This document shows positions 18,824-62,396 of a stretch of DNA of 64,000 bases, one piece after another. The translations under genes and the position numbers were made by a program. Location of the stretch: positions 37,731 to 101,730 of the forward strand of contig CAMVPC010000007.1 of the NCBI GenBank assembly GCA_947169265.1. Direction: 5' to 3'. Each line of letters starts with the position of its first letter. Positions within the stretch are counted from its first letter, which is position 1. Under the pieces are notes generated by a model. The model did not search any database. It was not told where the DNA came from and saw nothing but the letters and a program-made list of their open reading frames with translations. The DNA is from an uncultured Prevotellaceae bacterium. Lineage in GTDB: Bacteria; Bacteroidota; Bacteroidia; Bacteroidales; Muribaculaceae.

Positions 18824-18874
18824 TAATTTCTTTTAATAACTCAAAAGCTCGCGGCTCAACGCTCAACGCTCAAT

Positions 18875-19537
18875 ATGATTCAGGCTAACAATATCATCAA
18901 GTGTTACGGCGACCTCAAAGTGCTCGACGGGGTTTCGGTCGCCATCAACAACGCCGAGATCGTCGCCATCGTCGGTGCCAGTGGCGCCGGCAAAACCACG
19001 CTGCTCCAGATTCTCGGCACCCTCGACAGGCCGCAACAGGGTCAGGTCACCTACGACGGCGTCGATGTGCTCGCCATGCGCGAGCGCGAACTCGCCCGGT
19101 TCCGCAACCGCCACATCGGCTTCGTCTTCCAGTTCCACCAGCTGCTCCCCGAGTTCACCATGCTTGAGAATGTCGCCATGCCCGCGCTCATCGGCGGCGA
19201 CAAGCGCGCCGACGCTTACCGCCGCGCTACCGAGTTGCTCGAGTTCATGGGACTCGCCGACCGGCTCGAACACAAGCCGGCACAGCTCAGTGGTGGAGAG
19301 TGCCAGCGTGTGGCTGTCGCCCGCGCCCTCGTCAATAAGCCCAGCGTCGTCCTCGCCGACGAGCCCAGCGGCAGCCTCGACACCGCCAACAAGCGCGACC
19401 TCCACTCGCTCTTTTTCAAGATTCGCGACGAGTTCGGCTCCACCTTCGTTATCGTCACCCACGACGAGGAACTCGCCCGCGGTACCGACCGCGTTATCCA
19501 CCTCAAGGATGGCAAAATCGTCGGAAAATCCGCTTGA
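18875..19537 (+). CDS. ABC transporter ATP-binding protein, LolD/MacB-like
   Basis: [67 protein letters not shown]. Confidence 0.93.
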
Positions 19538-19936: not shown

Positions 19937-21556
19937 ATGGAAAATAACCTCTTCATTTACAATACGCTCACGCGCCAAAAACAGCTCTTCAAGCCCATCA
20001 ACGAGGGGCGCGTGGGCATGTATGTGTGCGGTCCCACGGTCTATGGCGACCCGCACTTGGGACACGCGCGACCGGCCATCACTTTCGATGTCCTCTTCCG
20101 CTACCTGCGTTTCCTCGGCTACAAGGTGCGCTACGTGCGCAATATCACCGACGTGGGACACCTCGAGCACGACGCCGACGAGGGTGAGGATAAAATCGCC
20201 AAGAAAGCACGGCTCGAGCAGCTCGAGCCCATGGAGGTGGCCCAGTTTTTCACCAACCGCTACCACGATGCCATGCGCGCGCTCAACGTGCTGCCGCCCA
20301 GCATCGAGCCGCACGCCACGGGCCACATTATCGAGCAGGAGAAACTCGTCGAGCAAATCATCGACAACGGATATGCCTACGTCTCTCACGGTAGCGTCTA
20401 CTTCGACACCGAGGCCTACAACCGCGACCACCGTTACGGCATTCTCTCGGGGCGCAACCTCGACGAGACCCGCGACGCCAGCCGACAGCTCGACGGAGTG
20501 GGGGAGAAGCGTAACCAGGCCGACTTCTCACTGTGGAAGGCCGCGCAACCCGAGCACATCATGCGATGGCCCTCGCCTTGGAGCGACGGTTTCCCCGGCT
20601 GGCACTGCGAGTGCACCGCCATGGGACGCAAATACCTCGGCGAGGAATTCGACATCCACGGCGGCGGCATGGACCTCGTCTTCCCCCACCACGAGTGCGA
20701 AATCGCGCAGGCCGTTGCCGCCCAGGGCAAGCCCATGGTGCGCTACTGGATGCACAACAACATGATCACCATCAACGGGCAGAAAATGGGCAAGTCGCTC
20801 GGCAATTTCATCACGCTCGAGCAGTTCTTCACCGGCGAGCACCCCACGCTCAACCAGCCTTACTCGCCCATGACAGTGCGCTTCTTCATCCTCCAGGCAC
20901 ACTACCGCGGAACCGTCGACTTCAGCAACGACGCGCTGCTCGCCGCGCAAAAGGCCTACGAGCGTATCATCGACGCATGGCACCGACTCCAGGCTCTCCA
21001 GGCCGCTTCCCCCGCCGGTCCCCCGTGCGCCGCCGCTTCCCCTGCCGGTTCCCCGTGCGCCGCCGCTTCCCCCGCCGGTTCCCCGTGCGCCGCCGCTTCC
21101 CCCGCCGGTTCCCCGTGCGCCGCCGCTTCCCCCGACGGTTCCCCGTGCGGCGACTCTGTCGCCGCCACTATAGCCGCCTTGCGCGGCCGCTGCGCCGACG
21201 CCATGAACGACGACCTCAACACCGCCCAGGTCATCGCCACCCTCTTCGACGCTTGTCGACTCATCAACCAGGCCCACGACGGCAACCTCGCGCTCAGCGA
21301 CGACAACATCAACGAGCTCAAGAGCCTCTTCGGCGACTACCTCTTCGACATCCTCGGCATTCGCGACGACGCCGCGGGTGGCGACAACATCGACCTCACC
21401 CCCTACCGCAAGGCCGTCGACCTCCTCCTCGAGCTCCGTCTCAACGCCAAGCGAAACAAAGACTGGGCCACCGGCGACCTCATCCGCGACCGCCTCAACG
21501 AGGCCGGCTTCAGCGTCAAGGATACCAAAGACGGCTTCGAATGGAAACTCCAATGA
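19937..21556 (+). CDS. cysS: Cysteinyl-tRNA synthetase (with repeat-encoded linker insertion)
   Basis: [77 protein letters not shown]. Confidence 0.98.
21001..21150 (+). repeat. 30-bp x 5 tandem repeat inside cysS
   Basis: Five consecutive 30-bp units cgccgcttcccccgccggttccccgtgcgc with a few substitutions; encodes (A)SPAGSPCAA repeats. Confidence 0.97.
21147..21165 (+). repeat. Hairpin repeat GCGGCGAC-TCT-GTCGCCGC in cysS
   Basis: Perfect 8-bp inverted repeat directly after the 30-bp tandem array. Confidence 0.8.
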
Positions 21557-22602
21557 GCCTAAAGCTCAAAGCCCAAAGCTCAAAGCTCAAAGTCGCCGTC
21601 GTCGTGCCGGCTTACAACATCGAGCCGTACCTCGGCGACTGCCTCGACTCGGTGCTCGCGCAGACCTATCGAAACCTCGACATCATCGTCGTCGACGACG
21701 GCAGCACCGACGCCTCCGGCGCTGTCGCCGACGACTACGCCCGTCGCGACTCCCGCATCCGCGTCATCCACAAACCCAACGGCGGACTCAGCGACGCGCG
21801 CAACGCCGCCCTCGACACCCTCTCCACCTCTCTCTCCACCTCCCTCTCCACTACACCCTTCGTCACCTTCCTCGACGGCGACGACCTCCTCCACCCCCGC
21901 TTCGTCGAGACACTCCTCGACGTCGCCACCGCCACCGGCGCCCCCATCGTCATCGCCGACTGGCAAAAATTCACCGCCGAGGTTCCCGCGAGCCGCAAGA
22001 CCGGTACTGTGGGCGGCGACACTGTCGCCGCCGCTCAAGGCTCAAATGGTTTGCGTAGTTCGAGGCTCTGCCTCGAAGCCCAAGCCGCCCTCAACGACAT
22101 CTTTTACCAGCGACGCCTCACCAACAGCGCCTGCGCGCGACTCTTCGACACCGGCCTCTTCGCCCACATCCGCTTCCCCAAGGGGCGCCTTTACGAAGAC
22201 ATCGCCATCGTCTACGACCTCGTCATGCGCGCCGGCAGTGTCGCCCACGTCCCCGTGCCACTCTACTATTACCGCCAGCGACGCGCCGGCTCCATCACCA
22301 ACGTCTACACACCCGCGCGATACGACATCGTCGAAATCCTCGACGACCTCTATGACCGAATTTCTTCGGAAAATCCGCCACTTTTGCCCGCCTTGCGAAG
22401 CCGACGCGTCAGTGCCGCCTTCAACCTCATCCAGCTCATGCCGCCCACCGAAAACGACCGCATCCGCCACTGCTGGGACATCATCACCGCCGCTCGCGCC
22501 GCCTGCCTCCGCGACCCCCACGTCCGCCTCAAGAACAAAGCCGCCCTCCTCCTCTCCCTCCTCGGCAAGCCCCTCACCACCCGCCTCCTCCGCACCCTAT
22601 GA
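21553..22602 (+). CDS. Glycosyltransferase family 2
   Basis: [66 protein letters not shown] overlap with the cysS stop. Confidence 0.92.
21555..21596. repeat. Heptad tract at the cysS stop / GT2 start
   Basis: 7-nt phased: gagccta aagctca aagccca aagctca aagctca aagtcgc (reverse complement contains GAGCTTT repeats). Confidence 0.75.
22012..22077 (+). repeat. Two adjacent perfect hairpins inside the GT2 ORF
   Basis: GGCGGCGAC-ACT-GTCGCCGCC (22012-22032) and TTCGAGGC-TCT-GCCTCGAA (22059-22077), separated by gctcaaggctcaaa. Confidence 0.8.
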
Positions 22603-22608
22603 CCCCGC

Positions 22609-22699
22609 GAGCTTAGAGCCTCGAGCCTCGCCCCACGAGCCCCGAGCGAAGAGCCTCGAGCCGCGACCCGCGAGCCATGAGCTTAGAGCGAAGAGCAGC
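22609..22699 (+). repeat. GAGCNNN heptad tract, 13 units
   Basis: gagctta gagcctc gagcctc gccccac gagcccc gagcgaa gagcctc gagccgc gacccgc gagccat gagctta gagcgaa gagcagc, uninterrupted 7-nt phase. Confidence 0.93.
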
Positions 22700-22857
22700 G
22701 AGTGCGTAGCGAGTAACGCCGAAGGCGTGCCAAGGCCAGCGGCCTTGACTTGAACGAAACCCCACGGCGCGTAGGCCGAAGGCCTGCGTGGCGTGGGGCA
22801 TAGTGCCGCACTCTCACGAAGAGCCCCGAAGGGGGTCACAAACAGCGAATCGGCTTC
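22700..22857 (+). repeat. Multi-hairpin repeat core, copy 1a
   Basis: gagtgcgtagcgagtaACGCCGAAGGCGTgcCAAGGCCAGCGGCCTTG...CCCCACGGCGCGTAGGCCGAAGGCCTGCGTGGCGTGGGG...CCCCGAAGGGGG... Confidence 0.95.
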
Positions 22858-22885
22858 GAGCCATGAGCAGTGAGCCGTGAGTCTC
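22858..22885 (+). repeat. GAGCNNN heptad tract, 4 units
   Basis: gagccat gagcagt gagccgt gagtctc. Confidence 0.9.
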
Positions 22886-23040
22886 GAGTGCGTAGCGAGT
22901 AACGCCGAAGGCGTGCCAAGGCCAGCGGCCTTGATTTGAACGAAACCCCACGGCGCGTAGGCCGAAGGCCTGCGTGGCGTGGGGCATAGTGCCGCACTCT
23001 CACGAAGAGCCCCGAAGGGGGTCACAAACAGCGAACCGGC
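22886..23040 (+). repeat. Multi-hairpin repeat core, copy 1b
   Basis: Near-identical to copy 1a. Confidence 0.95.
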
Positions 23041-23084
23041 CCCAAGTCAGGAGCCTCGACCCACGAGCCATGAGCCACCCAAAC

Positions 23085-33224: not shown

Positions 33225-33266
33225 GAGCAATGAGCTTTGAGCCATGAGCAGTGAGCTTTGAGCCTC
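33225..33266 (+). repeat. GAGCNNN heptad tract, 6 units
   Basis: gagcaat gagcttt gagccat gagcagt gagcttt gagcctc. Confidence 0.93.
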
Positions 33267-33423
33267 GAGTGCGCAGAGAGTAACGCCGAAGGCGTGCCAA
33301 GGCCAGCGGCCTTGACTTGGACTAAACCCCACGGCGCGTAGGCCGAAGGCCTGCGTGGCGTGGGGATAGTAGCCCACACTCATGAGGAGCCCCGAAGGGG
33401 GTCACAAACGGCGAATCGGCTTC
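33267..33423 (+). repeat. Multi-hairpin repeat core, copy 2
   Basis: gagtgcgcagagagtaacgccgaaggcg...gccccgaagggggtcacaaacggcgaatcggcttc. Confidence 0.95.
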
Positions 33424-33472
33424 GAGCAACGAGCATCGAGCCATGACCGTCGAGCTTAGAGCCGCGGGCTTC
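33424..33472 (+). repeat. GAGCNNN heptad tract, 7 units
   Basis: gagcaac gagcatc gagccat gaccgtc gagctta gagccgc gggcttc. Confidence 0.9.
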
Positions 33473-35992: not shown

Positions 35993-37090
35993 ATGGAAGA
36001 AGAACTCAATTTCAACGAAAATCAGCAGCCGCAAGCCGCACCCGCCGCACCCAAGAAGGTGGAGAAGGTCGCACCTTCGGCCGAGAAACTCAAGGCTCTG
36101 CAAGTGGCCATGGATAAAATCGACAAAACCTACGGACACGGCTCCATCATGAAGCTCGGCGACGACCACATCGAGAATGTCGACGTCATACACTCAGGCT
36201 CCATCGGACTCGACTACGCCCTCGGCGTGGGTGGATACCCACGCGGACGCATCATCGAAATCTTCGGTCCCGAGTCGAGCGGTAAAACCACACTCGCCAT
36301 CCACGCCATCGCCGAAGCGCAAAAGGCCGGCGGTATCGCCGCTATCATCGATGCCGAACACGCATTCGACCGCTTCTATGCCGAAGCCCTTGGCGTCGAC
36401 GTCAACAACCTGTGGATCGCCCAGCCCGACAACGGCGAGCAAGCACTCGAAATCGCCGACCAGCTCATACGCTCCTCGGCCATCGACATCGTCGTCATCG
36501 ATAGTGTCGCCGCACTCACCCCAAAGGCCGAAATCGACGGAGATATGGGCGAAAACAAAGTGGGACTACAAGCGCGACTCATGTCGCAGGCACTGCGCAA
36601 GCTCACCGCTACCATCTCTAAGACTAACACCACCTGCATCTTCATCAACCAGCTGCGCGAAAAAATCGGCATCATGTTCGGAAACCCCGAAACCACCACA
36701 GGCGGAAACGCCCTCAAATTCTACTCCTCGGTGCGTCTCGACATCAGGCGCACGGGGCACCTCAAGGACGGAGAACGCGTCTTCGGTGCCACCACGCGCG
36801 TCAAGGTCGTCAAGAACAAGGTGGCGCCTCCCTTCCGCAAAGCCGAGTTCGAAATAATCTACGGCGAAGGCATCAGCCGTACATCCGAAGTCATCGACCT
36901 CGGCATTGCCTTCGGCATCGTCAAGAAGAGCGGATCATGGTTCAGCTACGGCGACACCAAGCTCGGACAAGGACGCGACGCCGTCAAGAAACTCCTCGCC
37001 GACAACCCCGAACTCGCCGACGAAATCGAAGCACGCATCTTCAAAGCCATGGACGAAGGCGTCGCCCCGGCCTACGCCACCAAGAAATAA
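35993..37090 (+). CDS. recA: Recombinase RecA
   Basis: [87 protein letters not shown]. Confidence 0.99.
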
Positions 37091-37099
37091 CCGCGCCCC

Positions 37100-37183
37100 G
37101 AGCGATGAGCCATGAGCACTGAGCATCGAGCCATGACCGTCGAGCTTAGAGCCGCGGGCGTCGAGCTTAGAGCCGTGAGCCTC
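37100..37183 (+). repeat. GAGCNNN heptad tract, 12 units
   Basis: gagcgat gagccat gagcact gagcatc gagccat gaccgtc gagctta gagccgc gggcgtc gagctta gagccgt gagcctc. Confidence 0.95.
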
Positions 37184-37340
37184 GAGTGCGCAGAGAGTAA
37201 CGCCGAAGGCGTGCCAAGGCCAGCGGCCTTGACTTGGACTAAACCCCACGGCGCGTAGGCCGAAGGCCTGCGTGGCGTGGGGATAGTAGCCCACACTCAT
37301 GAGGAGCCCCGAAGGGGGTCACAAACGGCGAACCGGCTTC
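37184..37340 (+). repeat. Multi-hairpin repeat core, copy 3a
   Basis: 157 nt; same core as copy 2. Confidence 0.95.
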
Positions 37341-37375
37341 GAGCAACGAGCTTTGAGCAGTGAGCAATGAGCCTC
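37341..37375 (+). repeat. GAGCNNN heptad tract, 5 units
   Basis: gagcaac gagcttt gagcagt gagcaat gagcctc. Confidence 0.93.
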
Positions 37376-37532
37376 GAGTGCGCAGAGAGTAACGCCGAAG
37401 GCGTGCCAAGGCCAGCGGCCTTGACTTGGACTAAACCCCACGGCGCGTAGGCCGAAGGCCTGCGTGGCGTGGGGATAGTAGCCCACACTCATGAGGAGCC
37501 CCGAAGGGGGTCACAAACGGCGAATCGGCTTC
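37376..37532 (+). repeat. Multi-hairpin repeat core, copy 3b
   Basis: 157 nt; same core as copy 2. Confidence 0.95.
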
Positions 37533-37602
37533 GAGCAACGAGCCGTGAGTATTGAGCAACGAGCCATGACCGTCGAGCTTAGAGCAGCGAGCGAAGAGCA
37601 CC
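37533..37602 (+). repeat. GAGCNNN heptad tract, 10 units
   Basis: gagcaac gagccgt gagtatt gagcaac gagccat gaccgtc gagctta gagcagc gagcgaa gagcacc. Confidence 0.93.
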
Positions 37603-37621
37603 CGGACGGTGCCCTCTGAGT

Positions 37622-37650
37622 GCCCCCAGTGAACGCGTTTCACTGGGGGC
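37622..37650. repeat. Perfect hairpin between core copies 3b and 3c
   Basis: GCCCCCAGTGAA-acgcg-TTCACTGGGGGC, 12-bp stem. Confidence 0.8.
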
Positions 37651-37709
37651 TGCGCTCGCATCCGCCACTGTCGCCGTAGGCGCCCCCCTCGCCGCTATCC
37701 GTGAGCCTC

Positions 37710-37866
37710 GAGTGCGCAGAGAGTAACGCCGAAGGCGTGTCAGGGCCAGCGGCCTTGACCTGGATGAAACCCCACGGCGCGTAGGCCGAAGGCCTGCGTG
37801 GCGTGGGGATAGTAGCCCACACTCATGAGGAGCCCCGAAGGGGGTCACAAACGGCGAACCGGCTTC
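37710..37866 (+). repeat. Multi-hairpin repeat core, copy 3c
   Basis: 157 nt; minor substitutions (gtgtcagggcc, cctggatgaaa). Confidence 0.95.
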
Positions 37867-37922
37867 GAGCAACGAGCTTTGAGCAGTGAGCAATGAGCGC
37901 TGAGCGATAAGCGATAAGCACC
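37867..37922 (+). repeat. GAGCNNN heptad tract, 8 units
   Basis: gagcaac gagcttt gagcagt gagcaat gagcgct gagcgat aagcgat aagcacc. Confidence 0.9.
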
Positions 37923-61915: not shown

Positions 61916-62236
61916 ATGGACCAGAATACAAGACTCCGAATCGAAGAGGATATCGTCAAAATGCTTAAAACGGTGTTCGACCCCGAAATGCCCGTCGATA
62001 TCTACAACCTGGGGCTCGTCTATAAAATCGACTTGCAGGACAACGGCAATGTCGACATCGACATGACCCTCACCGCACCCAACTGCCCCATGGCCGATTT
62101 CATCTTTGAGGACGCCAAGCAAAAAATCGCTTCGATCGACGGTGTCAACGACGTCAACGTCAACCTCGTCTTCGAGCCCGAATGGGACATCACCATGATG
62201 AGCGACGAGGCCAAGCTCGAGCTGGGAATGATGTGA
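61916..62236 (+). CDS. MIP18/DUF59-family metal-sulfur cluster assembly factor
   Basis: IVKMLKTVFDPEMPVDIYNLGLVYKIDLQDNGNVDIDMTLTAPNCPMADFI. Confidence 0.95.
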   Translation: MDQNTRLRIEEDIVKMLKTVFDPEMPVDIYNLGLVYKIDLQDNGNVDIDMTLTAPNCPMADFIFEDAKQKIASIDGVNDVNVNLVFEPEWDITMMSDEAKLELGMM

Positions 62237-62262
62237 GCCGCGAGTAATGAGCTTTGAGCCGC
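62235..62262 (+). repeat. GAGCNNN heptad tract, 4 units, starting in the TGA stop codon
   Basis: (T)GAGCCGC gagtaat gagcttt gagccgc. Confidence 0.88.
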
Positions 62263-62396
62263 GAGAGTGTAGGGACTAATGCCGAAGGCGTGCCAAGGCC
62301 GGCGGCCTTGACTTGAACGAAACCCCACGGCACTGCGTGGCGTGGGGGATACTGCCGCACTCTCACGACGAGCCCCGAAGGGGGTCACAAACGGCG
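62263..62396 (+). repeat. Multi-hairpin repeat core, copy 4 (internally shortened)
   Basis: gagagtg...gccgaaggcgtgccaaggccggcggccttgacttgaacgaaaccccacggcactgcgtggcgtggggg...cactctc...ccccgaagggggtcacaaacggcg. Confidence 0.92.

Follow-up and report, generated by a model that had tools for sequence, protein, structure and literature searches.

Intergenic arrays of 7-nt units in which the first four positions are fixed and the last three vary (GAGCNNN) lie at gene margins in the genome of a gut-type Bacteroidales bacterium, which contains the 64,000-nt stretch of DNA analyzed here (the window). This design of a fixed tetramer and a variable trimer is widespread in Bacteroidales, with a tetramer that varies by species (GAGC, TTAG, and others). 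Because relatives use the same design with other letters, the arrays represent a type of satellite DNA that is widespread but has rarely been described. In the window, they share intergenic space with a structured core repeat that forms a second, independent repeat family. Heptamer repeats are over-represented in bacterial intergenic DNA, and we know of no accepted reason for this over-representation. All genomes compared were draft MAGs, among them the window's own genome (G000) and a sister genome (G322). An identical contig shows G322 to be RGIG10137, a Muribaculaceae MAG obtained from yak rumen, and the window can thus be assigned to the GTDB genus of that MAG.

Arrays and cores in the window

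Phased GAGCNNN heptads were present at every position claimed in the earlier note, and their 7-nt phase was confirmed. Two minus-strand arrays (18844-18871 and 21561-21588) were additional to those reported earlier. Arrays and cores occupied the following positions in the window:

18844-18871, minus strand: GAGCNNN array, antisense, ending 3 nt ahead of the gene that starts at 18875
21561-21588, minus strand: GAGCTTT-type array, antisense, at the extreme start of the GT2 gene; 10-residue translation
22609-22699, plus strand: GAGCNNN array after the GT2 stop; 13 heptads in perfect 7-nt phase
22700-22843, plus strand: core 1, predicted to be a terminal inverted repeat belonging to a Y1-transposase element
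22858-22885, plus strand: GAGCNNN array flanked by cores 1 and 2; 4 heptads
22886-23029, plus strand: core 2
23051-23078, plus strand: GAGCNNN array; 4 heptads
33225-33266, plus strand: GAGCNNN array preceding core 3; 6 heptads
33267-33409, plus strand: core 3
33424-33472, plus strand: GAGCNNN array following core 3; 7 heptads, the last ones degenerate
37093-37183, plus strand: GAGCNNN array, beginning 2 nt past the recA stop (recA, 35993-37090)
37184-37326, plus strand: core 4
37341-37375, plus strand: GAGCNNN array flanked by cores 4 and 5
37376-37518, plus strand: core 5
37533-37602, plus strand: GAGCNNN array following core 5
37710-37852, plus strand: core 6
37867-37922, plus strand: GAGCNNN array following core 6
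62235-62262, plus strand: GAGCNNN array, TGA/GC fusion with the stop codon of the gene at 61916-62236 (the slash marks the end of the stop codon)
62263-62392, plus strand: core 7, shortened, part of the central hairpin missing

In the tract at 22609-22699, 11 of the 13 units carried GAGC, while one was degenerate (GCCCCAC) and one read GACCCGC. Mononucleotide-shuffled versions of the window contained 0 arrays. Across the complete genome (2.9 Mb in 74 contigs), a pattern of four GAGC heptads had 56 exact hits, whereas its reversed version had none. The phasing therefore lay above both controls, and the limited trimer vocabulary that the earlier note had described was also borne out: 37 distinct words were counted, with TTT, TGT, CGC, TAT, and CAT as the most frequent. 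Entropy across heptads of this genome was 0.21-0.44 bits at positions 1-4 and 1.5-1.9 bits at positions 5-7, the low values at positions 1-4 being partly due to ascertainment, since arrays were found via GAGC. Two long arrays, G000:C8:643-695 and G322:C98:11872-11987, consisted of two alternating words (TGT/TGC and TGT/ATT, respectively), which make up a higher-order 14-nt unit. Elsewhere in the window, the cysteinyl-tRNA synthetase gene (19937-21556) contained a 30-nt in-frame tandem repeat of approximately 5 copies at 21002-21149, encoding 10-residue units.

The core repeat and its relation to the heptads

The seven window cores were approximately 143 nt long (130 nt for the last one), and each had GGGGGTCACAAAC at its end. 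The genome contained 27 core DNA matches. Folding of the core yielded several hairpins, with a z-score of -4.0. The sequence GGGGTCAC, which represents a GGGGWSAS motif, was present in 7/7 window cores, and GTAG was found ahead of the central palindrome in 6/7 copies. An Rfam search with the core returned no family above the gathering score (best score 9.1 bits, a chance value), in line with the earlier note, whose author could name no family for the repeat.

In congeners, cores were arranged as inverted pairs and, at several fetched loci, a small ORF was located between the members of a pair. This ORF corresponded to an IS200-like Y1 transposase (PF01797, E ~1e-21). The same arrangement of a core repeat, a 148-aa Y1_Tnp ORF (PF01797, E 3.9e-21), and an inverted core repeat was found in the window's genome (contig C8, ~31.3-32.1 kb), where the predicted translation of the ORF contains HVH and the Pfam domain is complete. 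Inverted cores around Y1_Tnp genes were also detected in G327, G302, and G313. Interpretation of the core as a novel ncRNA was dropped after these inverted cores had been found. In TIRtrons, a tyrosine transposase is flanked by long inverted repeats, which form dispersed repeat families and carry a GGGGWSAS motif (Di Nocera et al., 2013, PMC3733652). Because inverted cores flank Y1 genes, and dispersal as well as the GGGGWSAS motif are shared, the core was assigned to this group; judged by sequence, it is predicted to be the terminal inverted repeat of a TIRtron-type element with an IS200-like (Y1) tyrosine transposase.

As in TIRtrons/TIRYT elements (PMC3733652), the core forms inverted repeats around a Y1/RAYT-like tyrosine transposase and is dispersed as singles and clusters that carry GGGGWSAS. 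No notable difference was found for the core, whereas the heptads fall outside that system. With REP/BIME elements that carry a GTAG tag, the core shares this tag and the occurrence of intergenic hairpins near gene 3' ends. However, REPs measure 20-40 bp, as compared to approximately 143 nt and several hairpins for the core, which is not a 20-40 bp palindrome with an unpaired GTAG at one end. Additional families of hairpins (CCCCCAGTGAAACGCGTTTCACTGGGGG, CACCCGGAGGGTGCC, and GTCGCCGGAGGCGACCCCCTCGCC) were observed at 37603-37710 of the window and at loci L005, L008, L012, and L028; they recur beside heptads and cores in intergenic mosaics.

Many array loci in the genome were devoid of any core, and cores occurred genus-wide in congeners without GAGC heptads. 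Moreover, Y1_Tnp genes were equally common in genomes with and without GAGC heptads, and two heptad carriers, G079 and G031, had no Y1_Tnp genes. Since core-free arrays and heptad-free cores exist, and the presence of Y1 genes does not follow that of GAGC heptads, the heptads are independent of the core, and the single mosaic system around a core that the earlier note had envisaged could not be maintained. A model in which the Y1 (IS200-like) transposase spreads the heptads along with its terminal repeats would be consistent with the presence of heptads on at least one side of every window core, and on both sides of nearly all, and with the multi-heptad blocks common to core-linked loci. The separate occurrence of cores and heptads nevertheless renders such spread very unlikely, and the transposase was rejected as the cause of the heptads on the basis of the distribution of Y1_Tnp genes across genomes.

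Heptads at gene edges and in other Bacteroidales

Placement was analyzed with simple gene predictions of our own, which were uncurated (85% coding). According to these calls, 0/44 arrays in this genome and 0/22 in G322 were located inside genes. Many arrays began in sense at a stop codon (TGA/GC, TAG/AGC), and the offset of GAGC relative to the stop peaked at +1, +8, +15, +22, and +29. TGAGC was found at 30 of 244 stops in this genome and 7 of 96 in G322, as compared to 3 of 277 in heptad-poor congeners without GAGC arrays (Fisher p = 6e-8 and 0.004, respectively; p-values given here and below are nominal, with many tests made and tracts within one genome not fully independent). When tracts were oriented by their G-rich strand and pooled for the genus, the 5' end was nearer to the ORF edge in 61/78 (p = 6e-7); for G000 alone, this was the case for 16/22 (p = 0.05). 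A stop edge within 15 nt was found for 40/54 on the 5' side of tracts versus 5/38 on the 3' side, and the corresponding numbers for start edges were 11/28 and 5/44. The recA 3' end carried an array in both sister species, while array positions were mostly unlike between them.

Two further observations were made at gene edges of congeners. In G328 (L317:17318-17420) and G319 (L435:1344-1461 and 2597-2709), a sense array past a stop faces an antisense array ahead of a start at co-directional genes, and these facing arrays can pair into a long RNA hairpin. Many congeners, among them G304, G315, and G316, had an additional recA-like match whose C-terminus differs (GAWFSWQDMRLGQGREAAKQFL...) and which apparently represents a recA paralogue.

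At the ends of the alaS (AlaRS) and PFOR genes of congeners, other heptads (TAGCNNN, TAGGCTT, TTAANNN, and others) directly followed the stop. An unbiased search for period-7 tracts in 789 kb of congener DNA identified 37 noncoding tracts and 1 coding tract; other periods in the same DNA yielded 0-4 noncoding tracts (periods 4, 5, 6, and 8) or 7 (period 9). The sample from this genome contained 26 noncoding period-7 tracts and 1 coding one, while 0 were found in 238 kb from two other genera of the family and 2 in 272 kb from other families. TTAG and AGTT were the commonest periodic tetramers, each in 18/37 tracts (column-shuffled maximum, 10). Whole-genome scans for five consecutive TTAGNNN units were positive in 44/61 congeners and 75/296 Bacteroidales genomes, with almost no control matches in most genomes of the genus, and TTAGNNN arrays among the matches listed had limited, shuffled trimer vocabularies resembling those of GAGC arrays. 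GAGC heptads specifically occurred in 2/61 congeners, which would be wrongly read as near-absence of heptads, since other tetramers are used there. The reversed control, five units of GATTNNN, gave more than 100 matches in several Bacteroidales genomes (e.g., G176, G258, G252, and G194). Its abundance in some other families made it unusable as a null there; GATT probably represents a further fixed tetramer of this class. A view of GAGC heptads as ordinary tandem repeats only was rejected: in an all-prokaryote scan they were mostly monotonous, yet multi-word arrays clustered in Bacteroidota.

Origin, possible roles, and known heptamer repeats

The heptads may well be slippage-driven satellites confined to gene margins, with a tetramer that is needed for their propagation or by a putative binder, a reading that we adopt tentatively. 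An array would be inserted or born at a gene margin and would then lengthen by 7 or 14 nt at a time, through replication slippage or short duplications. Units with an intact tetramer would continue to propagate, or remain bound by a putative factor, while drift of the trimer would lead to a limited, shuffled vocabulary and coding sequence on the 5' side would limit the extent of the arrays. After PFOR, the first hairpin lay 75 nt from the stop in one array carrier and 104 nt in another, as compared to a median of 26 nt in 21 others. In G322, trimer words repeated at lag 2 in 70/173 cases, a level reached in 0/500 shuffles, which is a mark of 14-nt duplications. The longer PFOR spacers, known from two loci, and the lag-2 words together favor growth by slippage or short duplication. 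Overwriting of flanking DNA by arrays was disfavored, as spacers with arrays are longer. An origin by copying of the stop codon was also rejected: TGA/GC fits it in this genome, while authentic stops in congeners, read by eye, were usually out of phase with the array.

Plain slippage should homogenize and mutate all seven positions alike, and the 4/3 split therefore needs selection or a propagation rule; it is this split that suggests a tetramer requirement for propagation or binding. Slippage does not account for the start of arrays at the stop codon rather than elsewhere in the 3' UTR, and word repetition in G000 did not exceed chance at lag 1 or lag 2 (that at lag 3 alone was reached in 18/500 shuffles). 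Occupation of the recA 3' end in both sister species could, moreover, mean long-term retention and function. A functional 3'-UTR element, in which tetramers are repeated sites for an RNA- or DNA-binding protein just past the stop and affect termination, mRNA stability, or the distance that separates the last ribosome from the terminator hairpin, would agree with this recA occupancy, as well as with sense arrays that, at several genes, extend exactly from the stop codon toward the terminator hairpin and with a strongly conserved tetramer next to a drifting trimer. Most such heptads in Xanthomonas are, in addition, transcribed (PMC4692102). We nevertheless regard this role as unlikely, albeit worth serious consideration: tetramers differ by species at the same gene ends (AlaRS, PFOR), most congeners lack an array at any given gene, array-bearing genes inspected shared no theme, and some arrays are antisense to genes or distant from them. 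It is rather improbable that a dedicated, putative machinery recognizes the species-specific tetramer and builds or edits arrays at stop and start edges, which would then be addressed gene-boundary marks in Bacteroidales.

With a 7-nt period, 21 nt suffice to place a stop in all three frames, which could provide a fail-safe translation stop behind genes. Stop-anchored congener tracts contained 1.01 sense stops per unit versus 0.67 after column shuffling (maximum of 200 shuffles, 0.86), 16/16 of them closed all frames, and the median distance to all-frame closure was 19-34 nt with arrays versus 83-93 nt without. However, the T needed for TGA was kept in 52% of heptads of this genome and the C of GAGC in 92%, so that the stop is not the conserved feature here. 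In start-anchored arrays, the sense strand was not favored (0.75, as compared to 0.81 antisense), stop codons are absent from the published GGGNATC heptads, and a survey reportedly found no selection for additional stops in eubacteria (PMC6764699). Such a fail-safe is thus improbable. Translation of the arrays, whose 21-nt period would yield a 7-residue peptide repeat (e.g., KLKAQSS), could explain why the array at 21561-21588 lies within the N-terminal part of the GT2 gene as called, and the extension of some called C-termini by arrays, but is extremely improbable in view of the 0/(44 + 22) arrays inside genes and the frequent sense-strand stop codons.

Slippage-driven satellites, like any other explanation, must cover together why units split 4/3, why the step is 7 nt, and why arrays are anchored, and sister-species pairs with different tetramers make such explanations testable. 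The design is order-wide: the fixed tetramer is specific to the species, the trimer drifts, and the ORF-edge polarity also holds for Xanthomonas and Nostoc. For annotation, a warning is in place: arrays displace called gene starts and ends, and are likely to break assemblies.

The earlier view that no known family could be named applies in part. Heptameric intergenic repeats at ORF edges have been published (PMC4692102), while the open-access papers searched contained no description of the fixed-tetramer/variable-trimer form for Bacteroidales; this form and the exact stop anchoring appear to be new. In Xanthomonas and Nostoc, heptads of the type GGGNATC or GGGGA(C/T)T have the 5' end of their G-rich strand toward the ORF edge (Rehm et al., 2015, PMC4692102). 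The heptad class has a precedent because these repeats follow the same polarity rule as the Bacteroidales tracts (61/78); in both, moreover, the noncoding 7-nt period is far above other periods. In contrast to the G-tracts and G-quadruplex-forming units of the repeats described by Rehm et al., GAGCNNN and TTAGNNN have no fixed GGG tracts, and their three variable positions compare to one or two. Furthermore, 90% of the Xanthomonas repeats are located between the same genes, whereas Bacteroidales array positions mostly differ between sister species.

TAACTGA direct repeats occur in Beggiatoaceae, Cyanobacteria, and some Bacteroidetes (MacGregor, 2015, PMC4679880). They resemble the heptads described here as intergenic heptamer arrays that are patchy among species and present in Bacteroidetes, and a further likeness is that TAACTGA arrays differ between close strains by indels in 7-nt steps. 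Their unit is, however, invariant, whereas the GAGCNNN unit is half-variable, and in Beggiatoa they are mostly in forward orientation just upstream of start codons, while GAGCNNN arrays mostly follow stops.
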